The notes beneath the pieces are model-generated. The model made no database searches and had not been told where the DNA came from. It saw only the letters and a program-made list of their open reading frames with translations. Positions 13,009 to 40,663 of a DNA stretch of 64,000 bases are shown one piece after another (position 1 is the stretch's first letter; each line of letters opens with the position of its first letter). Made by a program: the position numbers and the translations under genes. This DNA comes from Oscillospiraceae bacterium. GTDB lineage: Bacteria; Bacillota; Clostridia; UMGS1810. The DNA is taken from positions 1 to 64,000 of the forward strand of contig SVJH01000008.1 in the NCBI GenBank assembly GCA_015069095.1. The letters run 5' to 3'.

Positions 13009-14952
13009 ATAGAATACATAGATGTTAAACAAGCTGCTTTGCTTTTTGAGTGCTCTGAACGTTGGATACGAAAGAAAATTGAAAACGATGAAATAGTATT
13101 TGAAACATCTAAATTACCGAACGGAAGGACAAAATACAAAATTCCGGTTAATGCGCTTAGTGAAGAAATTAAGGATAGATATTACGAATCAAAACTTAAT
13201 AAAACAGGTAAAGAATACTGTTTAAATGCCAATAGAAAGCAAAAAAAACTTGAAGATTATTCAGAAAAAGAACGTGAAATTATTGTTAAATGGTGCGATA
13301 TTCTTGAAAAATGGCAGACGGTGCGCGAAGATTTTACAAAGAAAAGCGAAGCCGACAAGTATTTTGTAGCAACTTTAAAAATTGACTACGGCGAAGAATT
13401 TAATGTAAGTATCCCTACACTTTATAGAAAATACAGTGCATATAAAAACAAGGATTTTGACGGTCTGATAGACAAGCGCGGGAAAGACAAAAAAGGTAAA
13501 AGCAGCATAGACAAAGATGTTTGGGACTATTTTGTTTATGTGTATTTAGATGAAAGAAGACTTCCTATTATGCAGTGCTACGAGCTTACAAAAGCATGGG
13601 CGAAGGAATATAAGCCGGAACTTTACGATAGTATTCCCCATTACGTTACGTTTAAAAGGCGAATTGAAAGCGAAATACCGAAAGCTACTGAAATTTACGG
13701 AAGATTCGGAAACAAGGCGTTTGAAGACAGAGCATCGCCGTATATTAAAAGAATTTATGATGACCTTATGCCAAATGAATACTGGATTGCAGACAACCAT
13801 ACTATTGACGTTATTACTCAAAGAGACGGATGCGATATGACACACAGATTGAGTTTAACTGCATTTATAGATGCAAGAAGCGGTGTAATGGTTGGCTGGA
13901 ATTTAACAGACAATCCGTGTAGTCAATCAACTGTTTTGGCACTTAGACATGCAATTAAAAGATTTGGCATACCTACAAATGTTTATTTTGATAACGGTAG
14001 CGAATTTTTAACACATGACCTTGCAGGACGTGGACACAGAACAAGAAAAAGCCAATCTCTTATTAAAAATCCACCTGCAGTATTTGAACGACTTGGTATG
14101 CATATGACAAATGCAATTGTTAAAAATGCGAAAGCAAAACCGATTGAAAGAACATTTTCCACTTTTAAAGGAACTATTTCGAGAATGTTTGAAACCTTCT
14201 GCGGCGGAAATGTTTTGGAACGTCCTGAAAATTTAAAAGTGAAACTTAAACACGGAAATATAATATGCGACAGTGATTTTTCACATCTTGTCAGCGATAT
14301 GATTGACAACATTTACAATGTATCAGCGTATGGCGGCGATGTAAAAAAAGACAGGGGCAAAAAGAGAATTGACGTGTGGAACGATAACGTAAAACAAATA
14401 AGGTATCCTGAAAGCGAAGAAGATTTAAACTTAATGCTTCTTAGAACAACAAGACCGCTTACTGTTGGAAGGAACGGTGTAACACTTAATATATCGGGTG
14501 TAAAACTTCACTATTGGGACAAAGACACATGGAAACTTCTTAACAAAAAAGTGTATGTAAGATATGACCCTGAAGATTTATCTTATGTGAGAATTTATGA
14601 AGAAGATACTGACAGATATATCGGAACACTTCCAATGAGTGAGGAAACAAGGATACCGTTTAATGCAACAGGCGAAGAAATTAAAATTGCACAGTCGAAA
14701 GTTAAAGAAGTCAGACGTGCAATTAAGGATGATTTTAATAATCGCATTACAAATCTTTCACCAGAGAAACGTATCAGCATAATTGATATGCAGATAAGAC
14801 GTGCAAATCAAGGTAGGGAAAGTTTTGTTATCAAACATCCTACAGATATTGTAAGAGTATCTGCAAAAGAAAGTGAATATAAAAAAGCCGTAGGCGAAAC
14901 GCACAGAAAACCAATTACTATATTTGATATTAACAGAAATTTGAAAGGATGA
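13009..14952 (+). CDS. MuA-type DDE transposase
   Basis: The protein joins phage ends to target DNA during transposition and replication. The N-terminal winged helix (VKQAALLFECSERWIRKKI) starts upstream of the first usual start codon, a TTG at 13039 with no ribosome site; GAAGG at 12996-13000 instead points to an AUA codon at 13009. That gives 647 residues, against 663 in Mu. Counting from the TTG, the DDE residues are Asp252 (ADNHT), Asp318 (YFDNGS) and Glu370 (KPIERTF), with Mu-like spacing. It is followed five bases later by the MuB-type gene. Confidence 0.92.
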   Translation: MEYIDVKQAALLFECSERWIRKKIENDEIVFETSKLPNGRTKYKIPVNALSEEIKDRYYESKLNKTGKEYCLNANRKQKKLEDYSEKEREIIVKWCDILEKWQTVREDFTKKSEADKYFVATLKIDYGEEFNVSIPTLYRKYSAYKNKDFDGLIDKRGKDKKGKSSIDKDVWDYFVYVYLDERRLPIMQCYELTKAWAKEYKPELYDSIPHYVTFKRRIESEIPKATEIYGRFGNKAFEDRASPYIKRIYDDLMPNEYWIADNHTIDVITQRDGCDMTHRLSLTAFIDARSGVMVGWNLTDNPCSQSTVLALRHAIKRFGIPTNVYFDNGSEFLTHDLAGRGHRTRKSQSLIKNPPAVFERLGMHMTNAIVKNAKAKPIERTFSTFKGTISRMFETFCGGNVLERPENLKVKLKHGNIICDSDFSHLVSDMIDNIYNVSAYGGDVKKDRGKKRIDVWNDNVKQIRYPESEEDLNLMLLRTTRPLTVGRNGVTLNISGVKLHYWDKDTWKLLNKKVYVRYDPEDLSYVRIYEEDTDRYIGTLPMSEETRIPFNATGEEIKIAQSKVKEVRRAIKDDFNNRITNLSPEKRISIIDMQIRRANQGRESFVIKHPTDIVRVSAKESEYKKAVGETHRKPITIFDINRNLKG

Positions 14953-14957
14953 TTTAA

Positions 14958-15884
14958 ATGGCAAGATATACAGATGAACAACGTAAAGAATTAGTAGAAA
15001 GAGCGTATGAGGAACTTGAAAAAAGAGGTCTTAGCGCAAATAAGGCAGAAGGACTTTTAGGAGTTTCGGGGTCGATACTTTCGGGCCTTAAAAACGGAAA
15101 TTACAGAGGTAATACAGATAAGTACCTTGAGGTGCTTGAAAAATATTTTGAATCAGTTGACTATTCGATATCGGATAAAATTGATTTAGATTATGTAGAA
15201 ACGAGCATTTCAAGAGATATTTATGAACGACTTAAAAACTGCAAAAATCGTGGAGGTATGGCAGTTGTTTGCGGAGACCCGGGAATAGGAAAAACAAAAA
15301 CTGCATTTAAGTTTTTAAATGAGGATCCTGAGCGTGTAATATATATAGCGGTAAATCCCTGTATGTCAACTGCAGAACAGCTGTTAAAACTTGTAGGTAA
15401 AAAACTTGGTCTAAAAAAAGTAAGTACATCAGAGCTTTGGGACAGTATTTTAAATGCGCTTCCTGATAAATCAATAATTATATTTGACGAAGCTCAGTTT
15501 TTACCATACAGAAGTATTGAAGTGTTTCGCTCAATGATGGATGATAAGAAAAACAACGGCAGCATACTTGGTATTATGTTTATGGGAAATATTAAAACTG
15601 CACTTAAAATAAAAGGCGATTCCGTTTCAGACTTTGCACAGATTTCATCAAGATGCCGTTTTCCTGCAATATTTTCTACAAAAGATGTTAAAAAGAGTGA
15701 TATAATTGCTCTTTTCCCTGAGTATGAAAATTCTCCTAAAGAACTTGATTTTCTTCTTAGAGTAGCACAGAGCAGAGAAGGTATAAGAAATGCCGTAAAC
15801 TTGGTTTTGGAACTTAAAGAAGCAGGGCTTTTTGATTATGAAAGTATGATAGAAATGGCGAAATTTATGCAACTTACTATTTGA
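14958..15884 (+). CDS. MuB-type AAA+ ATPase, target capture protein
   Basis: A 308-residue protein with an N-terminal helix-turn-helix (AEGLLGVSGSILSGLKNG, about 30-47), Walker A GDPGIGKT at 106-113 and Walker B IIIFDEAQ at 173-180. MuB coats target DNA, delivers it to the transposase and gives target immunity; the same domain order as Mu B supports that role here. ATG at 14958 follows AAAGGATG. It is next to the transposase. Confidence 0.92.
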   Translation: MARYTDEQRKELVERAYEELEKRGLSANKAEGLLGVSGSILSGLKNGNYRGNTDKYLEVLEKYFESVDYSISDKIDLDYVETSISRDIYERLKNCKNRGGMAVVCGDPGIGKTKTAFKFLNEDPERVIYIAVNPCMSTAEQLLKLVGKKLGLKKVSTSELWDSILNALPDKSIIIFDEAQFLPYRSIEVFRSMMDDKKNNGSILGIMFMGNIKTALKIKGDSVSDFAQISSRCRFPAIFSTKDVKKSDIIALFPEYENSPKELDFLLRVAQSREGIRNAVNLVLELKEAGLFDYESMIEMAKFMQLTI

Positions 15885-27103: not shown

Positions 27104-27592
27104 ATGTTAGTAAAAAGAAGTGATAAAGTAACATTTTTTGGAGTGAAAAACGGAGAAACTATTGTTTTTAAACGTATGACAGGTTTTACCGAACTTAACA
27201 CAAGTAAAAATCCAAAAGAATATAATCGTCAGTATGTAGACGAAGAATTTGAACAGAGCGATATTGTCGGATATTCGCCGTCTATGTCATTTGCGTTTGA
27301 TAAATACTCAGACAATGACATTCACAAAGATTTGGCATCAATATCTGATAACGAACTTTGCGGCGATGCAGCTGTAAGAAGTCTTATTATTGTTGACCTT
27401 ACAGACGGCAGTGATGAAAACGGATATAAAGCCGTTAAAAGAGATTTTTCTGTTATATGCGACAGCGAAGGTAATTCAATGGATGCATATACATATTCAG
27501 GAAACTTTAAAGTAAAAGGCGAAAAAGTTTTTGGTGTTGCTAAATCAGAAGATGATTGGCAGACAATTACATTCACAGAAATCGAAGAATAA
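27104..27592 (+). CDS. Major tail tube protein
   Basis: The 162-residue protein forms the phage tail tube. The fold is beta-rich with VKRSDKVTFFGVKNG at the start, SKNPKEYNRQYVDEEFE, GYSPSMSFAFDKYSDND, and DAYTYSGNFKVKGEKVFGVA near the end. It precedes two tail chaperone genes and the tape measure gene. A diverged second copy with an added domain lies at 35259. A perfect hairpin terminator follows it. Confidence 0.85.
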   Translation: MLVKRSDKVTFFGVKNGETIVFKRMTGFTELNTSKNPKEYNRQYVDEEFEQSDIVGYSPSMSFAFDKYSDNDIHKDLASISDNELCGDAAVRSLIIVDLTDGSDENGYKAVKRDFSVICDSEGNSMDAYTYSGNFKVKGEKVFGVAKSEDDWQTITFTEIEE

Positions 27593-28713: not shown

Positions 28714-28768
28714 TAATCTGTTTTGTGTGCCGATGTGCCGATAGATTTCACATAAAGGGGTGGATGAA

Positions 28769-31700
28769 TTGGCACAAGCTGATGGATATTTAAAAATTGA
28801 TACAAAATTAAATAATGATGAATTTCAATCGGGCTTAGATAAACTTAAAAGTGCTGGAAAAAAAGTGGCTCTTGCTATAGGTACTGCGATAGGTGCTGCA
28901 CTATTTAAAGGGATGGATTTTGAAAGCGGTATGAGTAAAGTTCAGGCCATTTCCGGTGCAACAGGCGAAGCCCTTGATATGCTTACTGAAAAAGCAAAAG
29001 AAATGGGTGCTAAAACAGTCTTCAGTGCCACTGAAAGTGCGGAAGCATTTCAATATATGGCAATGGCAGGTTGGAAAACTGAAGAAATGCTAAGCGGTAT
29101 CGAAGGGGTTATGAACCTTGCGGCAGCTTCAGGAGAAAATTTAGGGCTTGTTTCTGATATCGTTACAGATGCATTAACTGCATTTGGTCTTAAAGCATCA
29201 GATTCGGCACACTTTGCAGATGTACTTGCGGCAGCTTCATCCAACTCAAACACTAATGTCGCAATGATGGGCGATACGTTTAAATATGTTGCACCTATTG
29301 CCGGTGCTTTGGGATATACAATTGAAGATACTGCTTTGGCAATTGGTCTTATGGCAAATGCCGGGATAAAATCAAGTCAGGCAGGTACATCGCTTCGTGC
29401 AATGCTTTCAAGACTTTCTAAACCTACAAAAGAGGTACAAACTGCACTTAATGCGCTTGGCATTAGTTTAACTGATGCTTCAGGAAATATTAAACCGTTA
29501 AATATTTTAATGCAGGATTTGAGAAATGCATTTAATAAACTTGATAAAGCTCAAAAACCTACATATGCGGCAATGATTGCAGGCCAGGAAGCTATGAGTG
29601 GACTTCTTGCGATAGTCAATGCAAGTAGTACAGATTTTGATAAACTTACATCTTCGATTTCTAAAGCAGACGGCACCGCCGAGCATATGGCAGAAACAAT
29701 GACAGATAATTTGAAAGGTCAACTTACTATATTATCTTCGGCTGCAGAAGGTCTTGCGCTTTCTTTTTATGATGGAATAGACGAACCATTAAAAAAAGCA
29801 GTAAAATCGGGAACAAAAAGTATAGAAGAATTAACTGAATCAATGGAATCAGGGAAATTAAAAACTGCAATGGAAGGTGTTGGCGATTTACTTGCAAATT
29901 TGGTTGATTTACTTATTGATATTTCTACGAACGTTATTCCTGTTGTAATTTCCGCTTTAGGATTTTTAGGAAAAAATACAGCTTTAGTTGAATTAGCACT
30001 ATATTCTTTAATTGCTGTAAAAGTAGGTGTTTGGGCAACAAAAGCTTCGTTAGCATTGAAGGAATTGGGAAATACTATGAAAGGTATGGAAAATATAGCT
30101 TTTCTTAGTAAATTATTCACACCCGCAGGTGGCGCAGTTGCAGTTGCTACAATAACAGCCGTTACAGCAAAAGTAATTGAAAACAACAGTAAATCCATAA
30201 AAGAATCCCAAAAAATGATGGAGCCGATAGAAGCTATTGGAACAGAACTTGACAAACTTAAAGAAAAACGAAAAGAACTTGATGAAGTTACAAAAGAAAA
30301 TATAAGTGTCAATATGGAAGAAGCCAATAAAATTGAAAGTTTATATAATCAATTGGATCTTCTCGTGGATGCAAACGGAAGAGTATCTGAAACAAATAAG
30401 CAAAGAGCAGAATTTATTTTAGGGGAATTAAATAATGCGCTTGGTACAGAATATAAACTTACCGGGGACATAATAAAAAATTATGATGACTTATCAAAAT
30501 CAATTACTGAAACCATAATAAACAAACGTCTATTGGCTGCAATTGAAGGTGCAGAAGAAAAACAAATAGAAAATGAAAAGCAATATGTGGAATATGTCAA
30601 GCAAAGAAATGAAATTGAAAAACAAATTGCTGAAAATAATCAAAAGATAAACGAACTCTCCGGCGAAGGTGGAAAAGCTGCAGCAGAACGAATGTATTTA
30701 GTTGAAGCAAATGAAAATCTTAAGGCAAGTTATGAAGAAACTGGAGTTGCTATATCGGAAATTGAAAGTGAAATGGCTGCATATGGAAAACTTTATGCAG
30801 CACAATTCTCAGAAGATATAAATGTAAAAGAACAAGCATTAGCAGAATTTACTATTGCTCAACAAGAAGGATTTAAAACATCAATAAAAAGTCAGGATGA
30901 TTGGCTTAATGAATATAAAAATAATTTAGCTTTATTAAATCGTATAACTCTTGAAGATGGTTCCGTTAAAGAGGGCTACGAAACAGTATTTTCTCAAGCT
31001 AAGATAGGACTGGAAAATTCTATACAAGAACTTGTTAAATCGGGAATGAGTATAGAAAATTTGGATAGAATTGCAGGAGAAGAAATAGGAAAACCACTTG
31101 TCGAAGGTATGATAGAAGGTGCGACAGAGCAAGGATATGTTTTAAATGCCGCAATTCAAAAAATTATTTTAACGGCACTTGATAAAGGTAAAGAAGCTGC
31201 TGATATACATTCTCCGTCAAGACTTTCTCGTGATGAACTTGGTAAACCTTTTATTGATGGTGTTGCTGTTGGTATCATTGATAATGGATATAAAGTTTTA
31301 GATGCTGTTGAAAGTGTGTTTGATGATTTGGATCTTAAACATGACATAGGCGCACTTTCTAATGATGAATATTATGCCGAAATGGAAGTTTTAAGAGACA
31401 AACACATTAAAAAAGGCACAAAACAGTGGTGGGATTATACTAAAAAGTTAATAAGTTACGAAGAGAAAAAGAAAGAAGAAGCAGAAAAACAAGCCGAAGA
31501 CGAAAGAAAAAAGAAGGTCGATTCATTCAAAAAAGGAAATGATGAGATAATTGAGCAAACCGAAAGATTCTACGATGTAAAAGAAAAACTTGGCATTGCA
31601 AATGAAAAAGATGAGGCCGAAATGCTTCGCAAACAAGGAAACAGTTATCTTGGATTTTTAAAACAAATTGAAACGGCAGATTTCTTAACAAACGAAGAAA

Positions 31701-32545
31701 GAGAAGAACTTATTAAAAAGTATACCGAAAAGGCCCAGGACTCATTTATTGATGCTTATGCAGTTATAGCGGATTCCGCAAAAGAAAAATTTGACGAAAT
31801 CAAAGAAGATTTTGAAGATACCCTAAGCGATATCGAAAAAAGAAGAGATGCGTTTAATGATAAATTAAATGAGCACGCTCCGATTTATCGCACTGTTACT
31901 TTTGAAAATGCCAACGAAGGCGATGAAAGTTTTGTCCAACTTACCGACTGGAAAAAAGCGGCCGAGGAAATAAACGAATATGACAACCTTTTAAATTCTG
32001 TTATTGAAAGAGGCGCATCAGATAAGATAAAATCACATCTTCTATCAATGGGAATCGAAGAAGGTACAAAATATGCAAAAGCACTTTTAAATGCTTCTGA
32101 CAAAGATTTTAATGAATATACAGAAGGTTATGAAAGTTACCTTACAGCAAATGAAAGTATTGCTGAAAGTAAGTTCCAGGATGAAGTAAATGCAGCAAGC
32201 GAAGCATATAAAAACTCAATAAATGGTGCAACTGATGAAATATTAACCGAACTAAAAGAAAAATTCGGCGATATTCCTGCTGACTTTTTAACATTCGGCG
32301 ATGAAAGCGGACAAAACTTTAAAATTGAGTTTATGAAATACTTTGAAGCAATTTCTTCTGATATGCAACTTGCACTTGACGGCATTTTATCTGACTTTAA
32401 ATTAAGTGTAGATGATATAGTTGGAAACAATGTAACAAATAATGAAACACAATACAATTTCTATGGCACAAACGGAAGTGTTTCGGAAAATCTGCAAGCG
32501 GCTAAAAATAACGAAACATTAAATAGAATGAGAGGTATAGGATGA
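28769..32545 (+). CDS. Tail tape measure protein (TP901 type)
   Basis: The product has 1258 residues. The TP901-like core is at about 40-300 (GATGEALDMLTEKAKEMGAKTVFSA..., AATSSNSN region), followed by hydrophobic helices at about 360-460, then long coiled coils, the PSRLSRDELGKPF segment near 815 and a C-terminal region with FTDAD-type helices. I start at TTG 28769, eight bases after AAGGGG; a GTG three codons earlier is too close. Its length sets tail length, perhaps around 190 nm by the usual ratio. Confidence 0.9.
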   Translation: MAQADGYLKIDTKLNNDEFQSGLDKLKSAGKKVALAIGTAIGAALFKGMDFESGMSKVQAISGATGEALDMLTEKAKEMGAKTVFSATESAEAFQYMAMAGWKTEEMLSGIEGVMNLAAASGENLGLVSDIVTDALTAFGLKASDSAHFADVLAAASSNSNTNVAMMGDTFKYVAPIAGALGYTIEDTALAIGLMANAGIKSSQAGTSLRAMLSRLSKPTKEVQTALNALGISLTDASGNIKPLNILMQDLRNAFNKLDKAQKPTYAAMIAGQEAMSGLLAIVNASSTDFDKLTSSISKADGTAEHMAETMTDNLKGQLTILSSAAEGLALSFYDGIDEPLKKAVKSGTKSIEELTESMESGKLKTAMEGVGDLLANLVDLLIDISTNVIPVVISALGFLGKNTALVELALYSLIAVKVGVWATKASLALKELGNTMKGMENIAFLSKLFTPAGGAVAVATITAVTAKVIENNSKSIKESQKMMEPIEAIGTELDKLKEKRKELDEVTKENISVNMEEANKIESLYNQLDLLVDANGRVSETNKQRAEFILGELNNALGTEYKLTGDIIKNYDDLSKSITETIINKRLLAAIEGAEEKQIENEKQYVEYVKQRNEIEKQIAENNQKINELSGEGGKAAAERMYLVEANENLKASYEETGVAISEIESEMAAYGKLYAAQFSEDINVKEQALAEFTIAQQEGFKTSIKSQDDWLNEYKNNLALLNRITLEDGSVKEGYETVFSQAKIGLENSIQELVKSGMSIENLDRIAGEEIGKPLVEGMIEGATEQGYVLNAAIQKIILTALDKGKEAADIHSPSRLSRDELGKPFIDGVAVGIIDNGYKVLDAVESVFDDLDLKHDIGALSNDEYYAEMEVLRDKHIKKGTKQWWDYTKKLISYEEKKKEEAEKQAEDERKKKVDSFKKGNDEIIEQTERFYDVKEKLGIANEKDEAEMLRKQGNSYLGFLKQIETADFLTNEEREELIKKYTEKAQDSFIDAYAVIADSAKEKFDEIKEDFEDTLSDIEKRRDAFNDKLNEHAPIYRTVTFENANEGDESFVQLTDWKKAAEEINEYDNLLNSVIERGASDKIKSHLLSMGIEEGTKYAKALLNASDKDFNEYTEGYESYLTANESIAESKFQDEVNAASEAYKNSINGATDEILTELKEKFGDIPADFLTFGDESGQNFKIEFMKYFEAISSDMQLALDGILSDFKLSVDDIVGNNVTNNETQYNFYGTNGSVSENLQAAKNNETLNRMRGIG

Positions 32546-33387
32546 CAAAGATATTATTTGAAAATGAATTAGGTTCGTTTTCTCTTTATGGCGGAAGTGG
32601 AGATATTAACATTTTAGAAATAGAAGGTCTTGGCTTTGGAGAAAGAACATTTACAAATGTTACATTTAATAATATGCCTGGTCATAAAACAACAAACATT
32701 ACTGAAAATGCAAGAACAATTACAATTTCGTGCGATGTAAAGCACGATGAAAGAGAGAAAATTGAACACATTATAAGAGTTTTATCAAAAGAAGTTAATA
32801 TTTATGTTGAATCAAACAGTAAAAAAAGAAAAATTATTGGAAACTGCTCATCTTTTAATGACGGCAAAAAGCAAGGAAAACTGCATAGAACACTTACTAT
32901 GCAGTTTGTTTGTGATAATCCGTATTTTACCGATTTTCAAACGACTAAAATTACATCTCTTGGAACGACTGACCGCCTTACTGACGGTTTTGTGCTTCCA
33001 ATGGTATTTACCGACTTTACAAATGGCGGAAAAATACAGAATAAAGGAGACATAAATGTTTTTCCGGTTATAAGGGTTATAGGATATGATGAAAACAACA
33101 TATCCGGTATCCTCATAGAAAACAAAACAACAAAAAAGAGCATTTTGTTAAACACAACGGTATCAGAAGGCGAAGTAATAACAATTGATATTTTAAAAAG
33201 AAAAATATCGAGCACGATAAAGGAAGAATTGGAAATGCTTTCGGCTTTGGATATAGATTCTTATTTATCAGATTTATACTTTGAAAAAGGTCAAAACGAT
33301 ATTTTAATTACACCTTACGGCGATGTGCAGGACAAAATTGGTGTTACGATTGAATTTGATAATCAGTATTTGGAGGCGGTTATATGA
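32542..33387 (+). CDS. Distal tail protein (Dit-like)
   Basis: The 281-residue protein directly follows the tape measure gene (ATGA overlap) and has the siphovirus distal tail layout: N-terminal FSLYGGSGDINILEIEGLGFGERTF, a galectin-like middle (KKRKIIGNCSSFNDGKKQGKLHRTLTMQFVCDNPYF) and a C-terminal strand. Dit forms the hub between tail tube and tip. The order tape measure, Dit, Tal is standard. Confidence 0.82.
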   Translation: MTKILFENELGSFSLYGGSGDINILEIEGLGFGERTFTNVTFNNMPGHKTTNITENARTITISCDVKHDEREKIEHIIRVLSKEVNIYVESNSKKRKIIGNCSSFNDGKKQGKLHRTLTMQFVCDNPYFTDFQTTKITSLGTTDRLTDGFVLPMVFTDFTNGGKIQNKGDINVFPVIRVIGYDENNISGILIENKTTKKSILLNTTVSEGEVITIDILKRKISSTIKEELEMLSALDIDSYLSDLYFEKGQNDILITPYGDVQDKIGVTIEFDNQYLEAVI

Positions 33388-34340
33388 TTCCTGATTTAAG
33401 ATTTTATGATTTTGAATTTAATCTTTTACATATTGCTCACGATTGTATATCGTCTATATGGTCTTCAAAATTTAATGATATCGGAACATTTGAAGCGCAC
33501 TTTCCCATAAAAAGTGATATTGTAAATGCTCTTTTTGATAAAAAATATGTTGTTGCCGTTCAGGACGGAAAACAGGCGATTATTACAGGAGTGCAAATTG
33601 AAAGTGAATTTGTGATTTTCGGTAGAAGTATAAATTATCTTTTATCAAAAAAAATAACACCGTCTTTTGAGAAAAAAGAAACCGTTTCAAATATGTGTAT
33701 AGATTTTGTCAATGATGCATTTAAAGGTGTAGAAAACATTTTTTGTAACGCAAATGAAGAATCTTTAGAAAAATTTGATTTCAAAAAAGAAACATACTCA
33801 CTTACAAGTGATGTAATCCGTGAATGTTTGGAAAAATGTGGCGGAGGTCATAATATGGAATTTGACGTCAAGAACAAAAGATGGGTTTTTAATGTTTTGT
33901 CCGGGCATAAAGTTCCATACGTTTTAAGTGAAGATAATAAAACCGCTTATGATTTGACCTACACTTTGGATATGCTTTCATTTGCAAATAAAGGATACTT
34001 AGAAAAGCAAATTGAGGATGACGGAGAAACAAAAACAGAATGGGTGCTTATTGATAACGATGCTACAAAAACTGGTATATATGCTTTTTATACTATTCTT
34101 TCGTCAGAAACGGAAGAAGATGCAAAAAAAGATTTAAAAAGCAAAGAGATAAAAAATGAAACTGCACTTACAGTAAAAGAATTAAAGTATAACAAAGACT
34201 ATTTTTTAGGAGATACATTTACTGTTGAATATGAAATAGGAAACTTTAAAAAGAAAACAGAAAAAAAGGTTGTCGGAATTGATATTGTGTATGAAAACAA
34301 TCTTATGACCGAAAAACCGATTTTTGAGGAGGTTTTATAA
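33384..34340 (+). CDS. Tail-tip protein (Gp37/Gp68-like, Tal)
   Basis: A 318-residue protein resembling siphovirus ReqiPepy6 Gp37-like tail proteins: RFYDFEFNLLHIAHDCISSIWSSKFNDIGTFEAHFP at the start, SINYLLSKKITPSFEKKETVSNMC, and ELKYNKDYFLGDTFTVEYE near the end. It follows the Dit-like gene with a four-base overlap. It probably forms the tip hub; no peptidoglycan hydrolase domain is visible. Confidence 0.8.
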   Translation: MIPDLRFYDFEFNLLHIAHDCISSIWSSKFNDIGTFEAHFPIKSDIVNALFDKKYVVAVQDGKQAIITGVQIESEFVIFGRSINYLLSKKITPSFEKKETVSNMCIDFVNDAFKGVENIFCNANEESLEKFDFKKETYSLTSDVIRECLEKCGGGHNMEFDVKNKRWVFNVLSGHKVPYVLSEDNKTAYDLTYTLDMLSFANKGYLEKQIEDDGETKTEWVLIDNDATKTGIYAFYTILSSETEEDAKKDLKSKEIKNETALTVKELKYNKDYFLGDTFTVEYEIGNFKKKTEKKVVGIDIVYENNLMTEKPIFEEVL

Positions 34341-34341
34341 A

Positions 34342-35244
34342 ATGGGTTATAAATCAAGTTTTAAAATGGGAAAAACTTACGGCAGCGCAGATTTAAATGA
34401 AATAACAAAAACATTTGTATCAGGCGGTGTTGGCGATACATTTGAAGATGGAATTCCTTATAATTTAAAGTCAATAAATGACATAATAGCTGCATCGGGT
34501 TCAAGTGGTATTGTAAGTGAATCAAATAATTCTTTAAAAGTAGAAATTACAGACGGGAAAGTTAAAATCAATCCCGGACGTGCAATTTTGAATGATGGAA
34601 GCATATGCATTGTTGATGAAGAATGTGTTTATTTGGATTATACACAAAATAGCGTAAATTTTGTGTATATACTTAATAACGACTTGACAAATGACAATGA
34701 ACCTACCGTCAGCTTGAATTTACCTGGCGAAAATGCTGATTATGTTCTTCTTGCAACAATTGATGAAGAAGGAAATATAACAAACGAAAGACATTATGCC
34801 AAAGGAAAGATTGCGGCGCAAAGCAGTAATCTTATGGGACTGGCGTTTTATACAGAAGTAGCATCTTGTAGGGAGATAATTGCTGAAGGAGAGCTGTCAA
34901 CTGTTATATGTGATGATATAACTGGATTTAATTATGCTTTGATAAAATGGGAAAGTAACGACGGCAATTATTATACAATTGCATTTGTTGATTTAGGAAC
35001 AAATATCACAGCATGTGGATACAGATCAAAAAATGTTTCCACTATGCAAAAAATAACCTCCGGCAATACTATGTATCCGCTTGGTTTTTGTGGCGATATG
35101 TACAATGTTAGTGACGGACGTGTGCGAGTATCATGTATTGTTGAAAATAATCAGTTTATTATCAATGAAAAAATAATATATTCAACTGGCGATGATAGGT
35201 TCATACAAAGAGGTATACCGCCGTATAAAATTTGGTTATTTTAA
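34342..35244 (+). CDS. Baseplate/tail fibre protein
   Basis: ATG at 34342, after GAGGAGG, gives 300 residues. The N-terminal part (SADLNEITKTFVSGGV, GIPYNLKSINDI) and the central ISNGKVKINPGRAILNDGSI-like region resemble phage baseplate upper/receptor-binding scaffolds, and the C-terminal 120 residues are beta-rich. It lies between the Tal-like gene and the second tail-tube paralog, where host-recognition proteins usually are. Confidence 0.65.
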   Translation: MGYKSSFKMGKTYGSADLNEITKTFVSGGVGDTFEDGIPYNLKSINDIIAASGSSGIVSESNNSLKVEITDGKVKINPGRAILNDGSICIVDEECVYLDYTQNSVNFVYILNNDLTNDNEPTVSLNLPGENADYVLLATIDEEGNITNERHYAKGKIAAQSSNLMGLAFYTEVASCREIIAEGELSTVICDDITGFNYALIKWESNDGNYYTIAFVDLGTNITACGYRSKNVSTMQKITSGNTMYPLGFCGDMYNVSDGRVRVSCIVENNQFIINEKIIYSTGDDRFIQRGIPPYKIWLF

Positions 35245-35258
35245 AGGAGGGAATTTAA

Positions 35259-36344
35259 ATGAAAAAATTAGTTAAAAGAAGTGATAAAGTTGCTTATTAC
35301 GGACTTAAACAAGCAGACGGAAGCGTTATTTATAAAAAAATGCTTGGTTTTTCTGAACTTAATGTCAGTAAAAATCCTAAAGAATATACAAGACAATATA
35401 CAACAGATGATTTTGAAACAACATCGGTAATTGGGTATTCGCCTTCTATGTCATTTGCATTTGATAGATACAAAGGAAATGAAGTTCAGGATGATATTGT
35501 AAATATTTTTGACAAAGAAATCACAGGAAGCAGTGCATTAAGAACAATACTTATAGTTGACAAGAATGATGAAACATACGGCGGATACAACTGTAAAAAA
35601 CGCTTGTTTGCAGTTGTTCCTGACAATGAGGGTAATTCAACTGATGCATATACATATTCAGGAAATTTTAAATGTAAAGGTAAAAGTGTCAGCGGTGTTG
35701 CAAAACTTGATATATCAGGAAATGCAATATTTTTAAAAGAAATTTCAAGAGAAACTTTTGATAATATGACGACATCGGAGTTTGCAAATTTTGTAACATC
35801 AAGGTTCGTTATGGGCGGAGGATATAGAAAAAGCGGATTATCCCTATGCGAAAAAGACGGAAACAAATACATTGAAATGGGCGAAATAAGATCCAGAAGC
35901 GAAAGAATAAAAATTCATGATATATTTGGTAAAAGAGAATTTACCAAAGAAGATATCGGAAGAACATTTAAAATTTGTGTGCTTATCGCAGGTGGAGACA
36001 ATCTTACAAGAATCGGTATTTTTTCGCCGAATGGAACAAGCCCGATTGTTGCGGTAGATAAAATAACAAAAAATGATTTTAATGGTTACACAAGATTTGA
36101 ACTCGATTACACTGTTACAGCCGATACTTTAAATTATACTCTTCTTGGTATTGACCAAAATACAGAAGATAAGGGATATGAGTGTCAATGGCTCTATATA
36201 GATGATATTTTTGTATATGAGTATGAAAATGTTGCTATGCCTATTATGACATTAGATGAAGTTTTAGAAGAAACTACAGAAGTTGAAGAAAAAGAATCTA
36301 CTGAGACGGAGGAAACTGAAGATGCTACAGAAATACAGTCTTAA
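35259..36344 (+). CDS. Second tail-tube paralog with C-terminal beta-rich extension
   Basis: Residues 1-160 of 361 are clearly homologous to the major tail tube protein at 27104 (shared VKRSDKV, SKNPKEY, GYSPSMSFAFD, NS.DAYTYSGNFK.KG). Residues about 165-330 add a beta-rich domain like a carbohydrate-binding jelly roll (RSERIKIHDIFGKREFTKED, FNGYTRFELDYTV, GYECQWLYIDDIFVYEYE), and the last 30 residues are acidic Glu/Thr. It may decorate the tail tube or form a receptor-binding piece. Strong AAAGGAGG upstream. Confidence 0.7.
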   Translation: MKKLVKRSDKVAYYGLKQADGSVIYKKMLGFSELNVSKNPKEYTRQYTTDDFETTSVIGYSPSMSFAFDRYKGNEVQDDIVNIFDKEITGSSALRTILIVDKNDETYGGYNCKKRLFAVVPDNEGNSTDAYTYSGNFKCKGKSVSGVAKLDISGNAIFLKEISRETFDNMTTSEFANFVTSRFVMGGGYRKSGLSLCEKDGNKYIEMGEIRSRSERIKIHDIFGKREFTKEDIGRTFKICVLIAGGDNLTRIGIFSPNGTSPIVAVDKITKNDFNGYTRFELDYTVTADTLNYTLLGIDQNTEDKGYECQWLYIDDIFVYEYENVAMPIMTLDEVLEETTEVEEKESTETEETEDATEIQS

Positions 36345-36900
36345 AAAAGATGGTAATATAAAACTTTCCAAAAATTTTAAAGTGTGTGAATTTGCTTGTA
36401 AGGATGGTAGTGATACCATCCTTATTTCAAGTGATTTAGTTGAATTATTGCAAAAAATAAGAGACCATTTTGGAAAACCTATAACAATAAATTCTGCATA
36501 TAGAAATGCTACATATAATAAAAAAATAGGCGGTGCGACATATAGTCAGCATGTTCAAGGAACCGCAGCGGATATTGTTGTAAAAGATATTACACCAAAA
36601 GAAATAGCGCAATATGCAGAATATTTAATGCCAAAAATAGGCGGTATAGGTCTTTATTCATCCTTTGTTCACATTGATGTACGACAAAATCGTGCAAGAT
36701 GGGAGAATTACGGAACAGAAAAAGGAGTAAGCGGATTTCCAGGATATGAGGAAGATTTGACTATTGACAATGCAGTAAATATTTTGGTTGAAAATGGAAT
36801 TATATCAGAACCTATAAAATGGAAATCTTCTGCTGCCTGGTCAAAAGAAAATGTAACTTGTTTAATTATAAAGATGGCGGAATATATAAGGAGGTTATAA
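36322..36900 (+). CDS. Endolysin, peptidase M15A family
   Basis: ATG at 36322 has GGAGG nine bases upstream and overlaps the previous gene. The 192-residue product is an M15A-type zinc peptidase with His77 and Asp84 (SQHVQGTAAD) and His117 (FVHIDV), cutting D-amino-acid peptide bonds of peptidoglycan. A second segment (about 145-190: IDNAVNILVENGIISEPIKW, SAAWSKENV) resembles a C-terminal targeting domain common in Clostridia phage lysins. There is no signal peptide; the holin downstream would release it. Confidence 0.87.
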   Translation: MLQKYSLKKDGNIKLSKNFKVCEFACKDGSDTILISSDLVELLQKIRDHFGKPITINSAYRNATYNKKIGGATYSQHVQGTAADIVVKDITPKEIAQYAEYLMPKIGGIGLYSSFVHIDVRQNRARWENYGTEKGVSGFPGYEEDLTIDNAVNILVENGIISEPIKWKSSAAWSKENVTCLIIKMAEYIRRL

Positions 36901-36901
36901 T

Positions 36902-37867
36902 GTGCAAAATAAAAATGGTGTAATACTCGAAATGCCTTCGGTTATTGATTATGATTATGAAGTAGTTTGTGGTGCGCCTCAAACACAGTTTCCCAATAAA
37001 TTCAGTATAGACAGAAAATATGCAGGAAAAGTAAAAAATCAAGGTAACGTTGGTTCTTGCGTTGCAATGGTAATATCAAGCATTGCAGAAGTGTTATATC
37101 GTAAAACTAAAGAAAATGAAGGTTTTACTGAAGAAACAGATTTATATAAAGATTTCTCAGAAGGATGGGTTTACGGAGCATTAAGGAATGACGATTCTAC
37201 AGCAGAAGGAATGATTGTTTCAAATGCATTGGAATACTGGCGGTTGCTTGGTTCTTTACCTTCTATATATTTCGATATGCTCTACGAAATGCCTGATATA
37301 AAGAAAGTAGTTAAATCAAGAGAAGATTTATATAAAATTGCTAAAGAGTTTCCTATAGGCGGATATGTTGCGTTAAACTATGCTGATAAAGAACGAAGGG
37401 ATAACACAATAAAAGATGCTCTTACAAAATATGGTTATGGTCTTTTAGCCGTAAGTAATAATTATTTTGGCGAAGGACATTGCATCATGCTTACCGGATG
37501 GGATGATGAAAACGACAAATATGAATTTAAAAACTCTTGGGGCGAAAACTACCGTGATAAAGGATTTGGATACATTCCAAAAGATAAAGTAAATTCAGTT
37601 TATTTAATTTTGATGGACAAACCCGGACTTAAATTTACTGACGTTTCAGAAGATAAATGGTATTTTAAACCTATAAGAAGTGCTGTTTTAGCAGGAATTG
37701 TTAAAGGTGTAAATGAAACATCTTTTGAACCGGACCGACCTGTTACAAGAGCAGAGTTTACACAAGGTCTTCTTAATGTATATAAAAAGATTGACGAGCA
37801 AAACAATGCAATGTATAAATCTTTAATAGAATACATAGACAGAAAAGTTGATAAAAAACCTGTATAG
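36902..37867 (+). CDS. Papain-like (C1A) protease with SLH domain
   Basis: The 321-residue protein starts with GTG seven bases after AAGGAGG. The protease domain has Gln47 and Cys53 (NQGNVGSCVAM), His193 (EGHCIML) and Asn211 (FKNSWGENY), so the catalytic set is complete. One SLH domain lies at about 244-297 (FTDVSEDKWYF ... ITRAEF-type VTRAEFTQGL), which binds wall polymers of S-layer bacteria. It has no signal peptide or obvious propeptide. It sits between endolysin and holin, so it may attack the S layer during lysis. Confidence 0.85.
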   Translation: MQNKNGVILEMPSVIDYDYEVVCGAPQTQFPNKFSIDRKYAGKVKNQGNVGSCVAMVISSIAEVLYRKTKENEGFTEETDLYKDFSEGWVYGALRNDDSTAEGMIVSNALEYWRLLGSLPSIYFDMLYEMPDIKKVVKSREDLYKIAKEFPIGGYVALNYADKERRDNTIKDALTKYGYGLLAVSNNYFGEGHCIMLTGWDDENDKYEFKNSWGENYRDKGFGYIPKDKVNSVYLILMDKPGLKFTDVSEDKWYFKPIRSAVLAGIVKGVNETSFEPDRPVTRAEFTQGLLNVYKKIDEQNNAMYKSLIEYIDRKVDKKPV

Positions 37868-37878
37868 GAGGAACAAAG

Positions 37879-38076
37879 ATGAAAGAAGATATTTTTAAAT
37901 GGTTCAAAGCTGCAAGTATAAGGGCGATAAAAACATTTGCGCAGACAGCCGCATCACTTATAACAGTAGGTTCGATGATATCAGAAATAAACTGGGGACT
38001 TGTTTGGAGCAGTGCAATTGTTGCTTGTTTATATTCTGTGTTAACATCGGTTGCAGGGTTGCCCGAATTAAAATAA
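37879..38076 (+). CDS. Holin (r1t-like)
   Basis: The 65-residue protein has two predicted membrane helices (about 13-34 and 38-58: FAQTAASLITVGSMI and VWSSAIVACLYSVLTSVAG) with a short turn, resembling r1t-type holins. It follows the endolysin and SLH protease genes with GGAGG in front and is the last gene before the prophage end. It would open the membrane for the endolysin. Confidence 0.82.
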   Translation: MKEDIFKWFKAASIRAIKTFAQTAASLITVGSMISEINWGLVWSSAIVACLYSVLTSVAGLPELK

Positions 38077-39412: not shown

Positions 39413-40642
39413 TTATTTTACCTCTTTTCTATATTCAAGCGGATTTTTACCGTATTTTTCTTTGAAAATTTTTCTAAAGAAACTCTCGTTTTCATATCCC
39501 GCATTTTCTATAATGCTTTCTATTGATAAATCTGTGTTTAAAAGCATTTTTGCTGCATATTGACATCGCTTTTGCTGAAGATATTTAGAAAAAGATTTGC
39601 CGGTAAGTTTTTTAATAAGATTTCCGGTGTATACCGATGAATATCCAAGTTTTAACGCTAAATCTTTTAAAGAAGCATTTTTGAAATTTTCGCTTATATA
39701 TGCTTCAATTTTGCCAAGTAAGATTTCCGATTTATTATTTGTATCGTTTGGTTTTAAACCTTCTATGCAGTTTATAACCTCGTCTTTTGAAGGAATTGAA
39801 GGTGCTGCACCATTTCTTGAAACTGCTATTGCAGAGGCAGCAGAAGCGGTTTTTAAAATGTCTTTTATGTTTTCTTTTTTAGATATACCCGAAACAAAAT
39901 AACCTGTAAATGTATCGCCCGCAGCGGTTGTATCAACTGCTTTAACTTTGAATGCACTTTGACGTATAACTGAGTTTTTGTCGATGTAAATACATCCTTT
40001 TTCGCCTAATGTGAGTATTACTTTTAGATGTGGATATGTATTTTTAAAATAAACTATGCATTCTTCGCTTGAGGTGCATCCTGTTATTTCTTCCGCTTCA
40101 ACTTCGTTTAAAAGGATATAAGAGAGCATTTTAAAATCAAGATTTGTTATTTTTTCGTTAAAAGGAGAGGGGTTAAGCATTATGCACATTTCTTTTTCGT
40201 ATGCCTTTTTTACTATGTAATCGATGTTGCTTATTTCGTTTTGCAAAAGTATAATATTGTCTTTTTCAAAGTTATTAAGAACTGTGTCAATAAAGTCTTT
40301 TGTAACCATCTCGTTTGAACCGGGATAAAGAAAAATTGAATTTGAACCTTCTTTATTTACCTGAATTATTGCATGGCCGTTTTTTCCTTCTACTGTTTTA
40401 AGATACGAAATATCAACACCATTTTTTTGCAGAATATCTTTAAGCATTTTTCCGTCTGTGCCGATACATCCGGCGTGAAACACATTTGAACCGGCTTTAG
40501 AAATGGCAATAGACTGATTAAGTCCTTTTCCGCCTGGGAATGTTTCAAGTTTATTTGTAGTAATAGTTTCGCCGCTTCTAACTATGTGGTCGACTGAATA
40601 AACAAAGTCGATATTGCATGAACCAAAATTAAGAATTTTCAT
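39413..40642 (-). CDS. PfkB sugar kinase fused to an AraC-type DNA-binding domain
   Basis: The 409-residue protein has a ribokinase-family domain at about 1-295 (GGKGLNQ at 37-43 and the catalytic AGDTFTG with Asp243) joined to an AraC double helix-turn-helix at about 311-409 (LALKLGYSSVYTGNL; ENAGYENESFFRKIF). Both halves look intact. I start at ATG 40642 (complement), eight bases after AGAGGG. It may bind a sugar with the kinase half and regulate its own operon, which includes the nucleoside hydrolase. Confidence 0.88.
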   Translation of the reverse strand: MKILNFGSCNIDFVYSVDHIVRSGETITTNKLETFPGGKGLNQSIAISKAGSNVFHAGCIGTDGKMLKDILQKNGVDISYLKTVEGKNGHAIIQVNKEGSNSIFLYPGSNEMVTKDFIDTVLNNFEKDNIILLQNEISNIDYIVKKAYEKEMCIMLNPSPFNEKITNLDFKMLSYILLNEVEAEEITGCTSSEECIVYFKNTYPHLKVILTLGEKGCIYIDKNSVIRQSAFKVKAVDTTAAGDTFTGYFVSGISKKENIKDILKTASAASAIAVSRNGAAPSIPSKDEVINCIEGLKPNDTNNKSEILLGKIEAYISENFKNASLKDLALKLGYSSVYTGNLIKKLTGKSFSKYLQQKRCQYAAKMLLNTDLSIESIIENAGYENESFFRKIFKEKYGKNPLEYRKEVK

Positions 40643-40663
40643 TTTCATCACCCTCTTAAATTC

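Follow-up and report, generated by a model that had tools for sequence, protein, structure and literature searches.

A papain-type protease joined to an SLH anchor domain in clostridial phage lysis cassettes, a candidate accessory lysis enzyme

In textbook accounts, phage lysis of a monoderm host ends at the peptidoglycan. Many Clostridia, in addition, wear a protein coat. Work on individual lysis proteins has touched on this layer from several sides. The S-layer has been found to limit the access of endolysins from outside (PMC12285257) and to block that of the wall-binding domain of the endolysin CD16/50L (PMC9045149). The single SLH domain of another endolysin, LysBT1, binds cells and trimerises (PMC12285257). 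Xylellain-type C1A proteases have been acquired by members of the Myoviridae and Siphoviridae, with no lysis-cassette role described in that study (PMC10380794), and a survey of viral lytic proteins leaves papain and SLH domains unmentioned in its main text (PMC12596118). In the open-licence papers that we searched, neither a phage C1A-SLH protein nor a surface-layer protease belonging to a lysis cassette is described.

Here, we analyse such a protein, encoded in a window of 64,000 nucleotides from an Oscillospiraceae bacterium of the gut. The open reading frame at positions 36902-37867 has a GTG start and an intact frame, and its 321-residue product comprises a papain-type (C1A) protease followed by one SLH domain, the only two domains matched in Pfam. 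The gene, its parts and its surroundings are as follows:

13039-15884, forward strand: Mu-like transposase and DNA transposition protein, encoded by this prophage (phrog_310, E 6.6e-98; phrog_296, E 3.6e-42)
28760-36344, forward strand: late tail genes directly upstream, comprising tape measure, Dit, Gp37-like and two more open reading frames (Pfam, phrog)
36322-36900, forward strand: M15_3-type endolysin (Peptidase_M15_3, E 4.9e-26; phrog_894 endolysin, E 4.9e-48)
36889-36894, forward strand: AGGAGG ribosome-binding site of the C1A-SLH gene, within the final codons of the endolysin (sequence)
36902-37867, forward strand: C1A-SLH protein, 321 residues, GTG start, without signal peptide
36989-37621, forward strand: papain-like (C1A) domain, about residues 30-240 (PF00112, AlphaFold2 model, Foldseek)
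37040-37042, forward strand: Gln47, oxyanion-hole glutamine, invariant in nine aligned C1A-SLH relatives
37058-37060, forward strand: Cys53, nucleophile, invariant, at the N-terminus of helix 53-72 in the model
37478-37480, forward strand: His193, catalytic, invariant, at the start of strand 193-201 in the model
37532-37534, forward strand: Asn211 of the NSWG motif, invariant in nine aligned relatives
37631-37759, forward strand: single SLH domain (PF00395, E 4.6e-10) with W253, GIVKG (265-269) and TRAE (282-285), motifs as in PMC12285257
37748-37852, forward strand: long C-terminal helix, residues 283-317, the second SLH helix continuing into the tail (AlphaFold2 secondary structure)
37879-38076, forward strand: r1t-type holin, 65 residues (Phage_r1t_holin PF16945, E 5.1e-12; phrog_443 holin, E 2.1e-13)

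The gene starts 1 bp after the M15_3 endolysin and ends 11 bp before the r1t-type holin, and thus lies between endolysin and holin, as a sequence-only reading of the locus had placed it. For the endolysin, we adopted the in-frame ATG at 36322, which has GGAGG upstream, while the longest open reading frame begins with a TTG at 36283; its product carries no SLH domain, and this peptidoglycan hydrolase is encoded separately from the C1A-SLH protein. The cassette forms the end of a Mu-like prophage with a siphophage tail (13039-38076) that encodes transposase, transposition protein, terminase, portal, major head, tape measure, Dit and Gp37-like proteins, and the prophage genes tested included neither a tyrosine nor a serine integrase. 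The IMG/VR contig 3300023371_000680 encodes an identical protein with the same flanking genes. A chromosomal host gene can be ruled out, given the location inside the late block and a host genome in which no further C1A gene was found. Two side observations concern the neighbourhood. The 361-residue protein just before the endolysin (35259-36344) matches phrog_3099 over its first 150 residues, as does a short tail-region protein at 27104-27592, a double match that reflects a repeated tail domain. Beyond the holin, a 412-residue open reading frame on the reverse strand (39413-40651) resembles, by reading, a PfkB-type sugar kinase with a C-terminal AraC-type helix-turn-helix.

The catalytic part of the protein has all the hallmarks of a C1A protease. 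The residues previously read as its catalytic set, Gln47, Cys53, His193 and Asn211, proved exact in number and occur in the expected order within QGxxGSC and NSWG motifs. The Pfam match to Peptidase_C1 (PF00112, E 7.8e-7, residues 174-230), which exceeds the cut-off of 20.7 bits, covers the His/Asn half only, the Cys half being readable as QGNVGSC at residues 47-53. In an AlphaFold2 model built from 11 aligned sequences (mean pLDDT 85.4, pTM 0.86), helix 53-72 opens with Cys53 and strand 193-201 with His193, as in papain. A Foldseek search of the PDB returned xylellain as the best match (E 3.5e-11), followed by Der f 1, procathepsins and cathepsins, and papains. In a viral library, the top matches were phage proteins named peptidase or Peptidase_C1, with lower matches that bear the database names copper amine oxidase, N acetylmuramidase and peptidoglycan binding-like. 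By its model, the protein is thus a papain-fold C1A protease, predicted to be proteolytically active from its intact catalytic set. Since all nine C1A-SLH sequences aligned share the four catalytic residues without exception, a degenerate enzyme can be ruled out, and a loss of these residues among relatives, which was specifically looked for, did not emerge.

The C-terminal part is a genuine SLH domain (residues 244-286), as the sequence-only reading had stated, and it retains the tryptophan, GIxxG and TRAE motifs of SLH anchors. In the model, it consists of two helices, the second of which spans residues 283-317. Most relatives likewise have one SLH repeat, with three in L116 and L119. A single domain in place of three could mean weak binding in a protein that does not form trimers, yet, judging by LysBT1, it need not be a flaw. 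The heptad pattern of the C-terminal helix is weak, and we therefore rejected a coiled-coil trimer formed through this helix as a working model, keeping it as a mere possibility by analogy with LysBT1.

The fusion is not confined to this prophage. Sequence-only profile searches of Clostridia genomes and IMG/VR retrieved ten further distinct loci, whose products share 22-43% identity with the window protein. Gene context was not used in retrieval, so the lysis-gene company of these relatives is not a circular result. The neighbours, in gene order, are as follows:

Window: M15_3, C1A-SLH, r1t holin
L161: holin-like open reading frames, C1A-SLH, M15_3
L115/L163: Amidase_3, C1A-SLH, Hol44 holin
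L116: holin_4_1, SPP1 holin, C1A-SLH, CHAP
L119: CHAP (below the Pfam cut-off, L116-like), C1A-SLH, holin resembling that of L116
L120/L165: tail region, C1A-SLH, holin_4_1, Amidase_2
L127: C1A-SLH, Amidase_2
L088: C1A-SLH, Amidase_2
L067/L162: tail region, C1A-SLH, small open reading frames, Amidase_2 roughly 1 kb further along
L123: short fragment resembling the C-terminal end of the L127 endolysin, C1A-SLH
L121/L164: tail region, C1A-SLH, contig end

Most loci thus adjoin an endolysin, a holin or both, in varying order and with four endolysin classes and several holin families. The gene sits beside endolysin and holin in a late operon, and this arrangement recurs across phages; both the domain architecture and the cassette position are real and far beyond chance. 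A lone curiosity or frameshift artefact is ruled out by the intact frame, the ribosome-binding site and the ten further loci. The fusion was found in 8 of 391 genomes of the class, which belong, going by their labels, to six families (the window's own, G000, together with G243, G245, G065, G057, G084, G089 and G140). These relatives were found by family profiles, whereas the window protein alone gave no match as a query against the genome contigs. The search for such fusions near holins that the sequence-only reading had called for was thus answered in the Clostridia genomes and IMG/VR, but not among 50,697 phage records, where tblastn queried with three family members (window, L116 and L115) detected none and gave only the SLH-less gene of phage THSA-485A, distant C1A genes and three human-gut records. 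The latter (MT837935, L214; MT838068, L215; MT839277, L213) are unverified phage-labelled contigs that we read as bacterial chromosome encoding C1A and SLH surface proteins; we rejected them as fusion carriers, their products being bacterial-type surface proteins or chromosomal-type C1A proteases. As a separate observation, the endolysins at L116 2720-3532, L127 522-1301, L119 9946-11313 and L123 3764-3955 have a C-terminal segment in common (MIYNYID-NMPEWAR...); two of the copies give sub-threshold SLH matches (E 0.003 and 0.007), and the segment may represent a diverged SLH-like wall-binding domain. The C1A-SLH gene is under purifying selection in one close pair, L120 and L121 (dN 0.097, dS 0.879, dN/dS 0.11), all other pairs being saturated.

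None of the ten C1A-SLH members inspected has an N-terminal hydrophobic segment or signal peptide; in the window protein, the maximum 15-residue Kyte-Doolittle mean is 0.55, and a hydrophobic N-terminal stretch is absent. The hosts, in turn, are equipped for SLH anchoring, a pathway of which CsaB is an enzyme. A host of this type had been looked for as a precondition of the original proposal, and the window's host indeed has 34 SLH matches, with about 17 SLH-encoding open reading frames besides the phage gene, as well as CsaB (TIGR03609) above the curated cut-off. From its CsaB gene, it is predicted to make a CsaB-dependent pyruvylated wall polymer, and its SLH proteins and CsaB are the observed signs of a putative protein coat, which may be an S-layer. 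CsaB is also present in all seven other fusion hosts, which have 58-139 SLH matches each. Against a background of 195 of 381 class genomes (51%), a simple binomial calculation that ignores the relatedness of the genomes puts the chance of finding it in all eight hosts at about 0.005. In the window's host, CsaB forms the C-terminal part of a 762-residue open reading frame (G000:C39:14511-15434; L212 339-2627) whose N-terminal part reads as glycosyltransferase-like, and similar long open reading frames are common among the class genomes.

Late co-expression, the missing export signal, the SLH anchor, hosts with the anchoring pathway and the company of holin and endolysin together lead us to favour, as reasonably likely, a role as a late accessory lysis enzyme that would leave the cell with the endolysin through the holin, dock by its SLH domain on the wall polymer and cleave the protein coat. 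Since related viruses of several other Clostridia families show a similar arrangement, the protein probably helps to break the outer protein coat of the host when virions burst out. The steps of this process can be pictured as follows; that the protein is proteolytically active, crosses at the holin, attaches to the wall polymer and has surface proteins as its substrate are points that we infer. The protein would be made late, together with endolysin and holin, and, having no export signal, would leave the cytoplasm across the holin-damaged membrane. Its SLH domain would then bind the CsaB-modified wall polymer that carries the host's own SLH surface proteins, placing the papain domain so that it attacks these proteins, which would form an S-layer or a coat of that kind, from the side of the wall. 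The coat would give way while the endolysin opens the peptidoglycan, and the virions would be freed. The lysis-time role proposed by the sequence-only reading for a wall-anchored phage C1A protease thus gains support from cassette position and recurrence, its activity and substrate being predicted. Such an enzyme is not generally required, because most phages of SLH-bearing hosts appear to lack one, as the small number of genomes with the fusion indicates.

The same reading had also offered action at entry, and this option keeps some footing. In L120, L121 and L067, the gene directly follows genes of the tail or fibre region, an arrangement that weighs against the lysis role and would also fit a virion protein, which needs no signal peptide. 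Packaged on the tail, the protease could digest the coat locally so that the tail reaches the wall, with the SLH domain holding it there. However, in the window, L115 and L119 the gene is flanked by endolysin and holin, in L127, L116, L088 and L161 it adjoins the endolysin, and the proteins of the window, L162 and L206 showed no domain of a structural or fibre-attachment kind, so that we regard an entry protease as unlikely, though the strongest of the alternatives. Somewhat less probable still is a function after lysis, in which the anchored protease would degrade the phage receptors that SLH surface proteins provide on ghosts and thereby keep progeny from being trapped on debris. Anchoring to wall remnants would suit this task, its anatomy is identical to that of a lysis enzyme, and some phages of B. 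anthracis depend on surface proteins that in turn require CsaB (PMC9703825); the available evidence, however, fits release through the coat equally well. A protease confined to the cytoplasm that targets phage or host proteins, for instance to control lysis timing, with the SLH domain serving for oligomerisation only, would agree with the lack of an export signal and with the ability of SLH domains to mediate trimerisation, as in LysBT1 (PMC12285257), but it leaves the retained SLH anchor motifs unaccounted for and is at odds with the frequency of CsaB in the fusion hosts, which points to a wall ligand; we consider it improbable. Least likely of all is a protein displayed on the lysogen for S-layer processing or superinfection exclusion, both earlier suggestions, since, even though secreted clostridial surface proteins can carry SLH and C1A domains and SlpA is processed by Cwp84 (PMC4089489), neither function fits a protein that lacks a signal peptide in every member inspected and is encoded in a late lysis block, tightly spaced among late genes, rather than in a position expressed in lysogeny.

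Phage C1A proteases without an SLH domain place the candidate lysis enzyme in a wider setting. In phage THSA-485A, a GH25 gene is followed by a C1A gene; in L206 (6678-8382), a C1A gene is followed by an Amidase_3 gene, both products ending in Cu_amine_oxidN1, which suggests a shared envelope-targeting module; and in L171 (4806-6831), a CHAP-like protein, a phrog_9233 holin and a C1A protease are encoded in a row. The L171 contig is binned as Methanobrevibacter and could represent an archaeal virus or a mis-binned phage. Given these SLH-less proteases in lysis regions, we dropped the idea that the SLH domain is the cause of the lysis-cassette location. In many other phage C1A proteins, whose neighbours are mostly unannotated, the C-terminus is a helix of cationic amphipathic or of hydrophobic type. 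Lysine-rich amphipathic helices occur at the C-termini of proteins encoded at L069 4947-5768, L071 4965-5762, L073 4935-5783, L079 4986-5969, L081 4980-5747, L085 4962-5744, L099 4704-5768 and L114 4683-5744, and the hydrophobic moment of these lysine-rich helices is above that of nearly all shuffles; C1A proteins in L101, L106 and L108 end in an apparent membrane helix. Such C-terminal helices are possibly an alternative anchor. A chromosomal-looking C1A family from other members of the phylum (L202 274-1332, L203 3909-4817, L204 7453-8361) has a common C-terminal segment that resembles the tail of the THSA-485A protein, and the phage gene may stem from this family. What unites the phage proteases may be a single core fitted with interchangeable envelope anchors. 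More tentatively, and with the odds rather against it, one may speculate that phages of coated monoderm bacteria have a third lysis step, in which a dedicated envelope protease removes the outer protein layer as an S-layer counterpart of spanins, its single papain-type core being combined with one or another C-terminal anchor (SLH, Cu_amine_oxidN1 or a membrane-type helix).

The individual domains and the cassette are known already; what is new is the C1A-SLH component and, plausibly, a new step of lysis. If our reading is true, a conserved wall-anchored protease in lysis cassettes would be a dedicated phage tool for the protein coat, adding a class of wall-targeted phage enzymes and a recognisable annotation for genes now named only peptidase. 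It would also open the testable question of whether a coated cell needs proteolysis for phage release.

Among described systems, LysBT1 from a Brevibacillus thermoruber prophage is similar in being a lysis protein of an SLH-rich host with one C-terminal SLH domain and conserved W, GIIxG and TRAE motifs (PMC12285257). However, its catalytic part is an Amidase_2 domain and it is the endolysin itself, whereas the window protein contains no peptidoglycan hydrolase domain and its SLH domain sits on a separate protease beside an SLH-less endolysin. CD16/50L of a C. difficile phage likewise combines a phage lysis protein with a host-type, CWB2-like surface anchor (PMC9045149), but the anchor is again part of the endolysin, and no protease is involved. 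In Thermoanaerobacterium phage THSA-485A, the C1A protein Tsac_2838 is encoded directly behind the GH25 endolysin and shares 25% identity over 68% with the window protein, from which it differs in its different C-terminal tail and the lack of an SLH domain. Xylellain-type short bacterial C1A proteases (PDB 3ois), although the nearest solved fold, also lack SLH. Cwp84 of Clostridioides difficile, to which the sequence-only reading had compared the protein, is likewise a clostridial C1A protease that carries a wall-anchoring module, and it acts on a surface-layer protein (PMC4089489), but it is a chromosomal maturation enzyme, not a lysis gene, and is secreted with a signal peptide and propeptide and has a lectin-like domain. 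The comparison therefore holds for the fold family and ends there: the nearest structure is xylellain, the Pfam matches of the window protein include neither CWB2 anchors nor a lectin-like domain, no Cwp84-type propeptide is present, and the anchor is of the SLH type.
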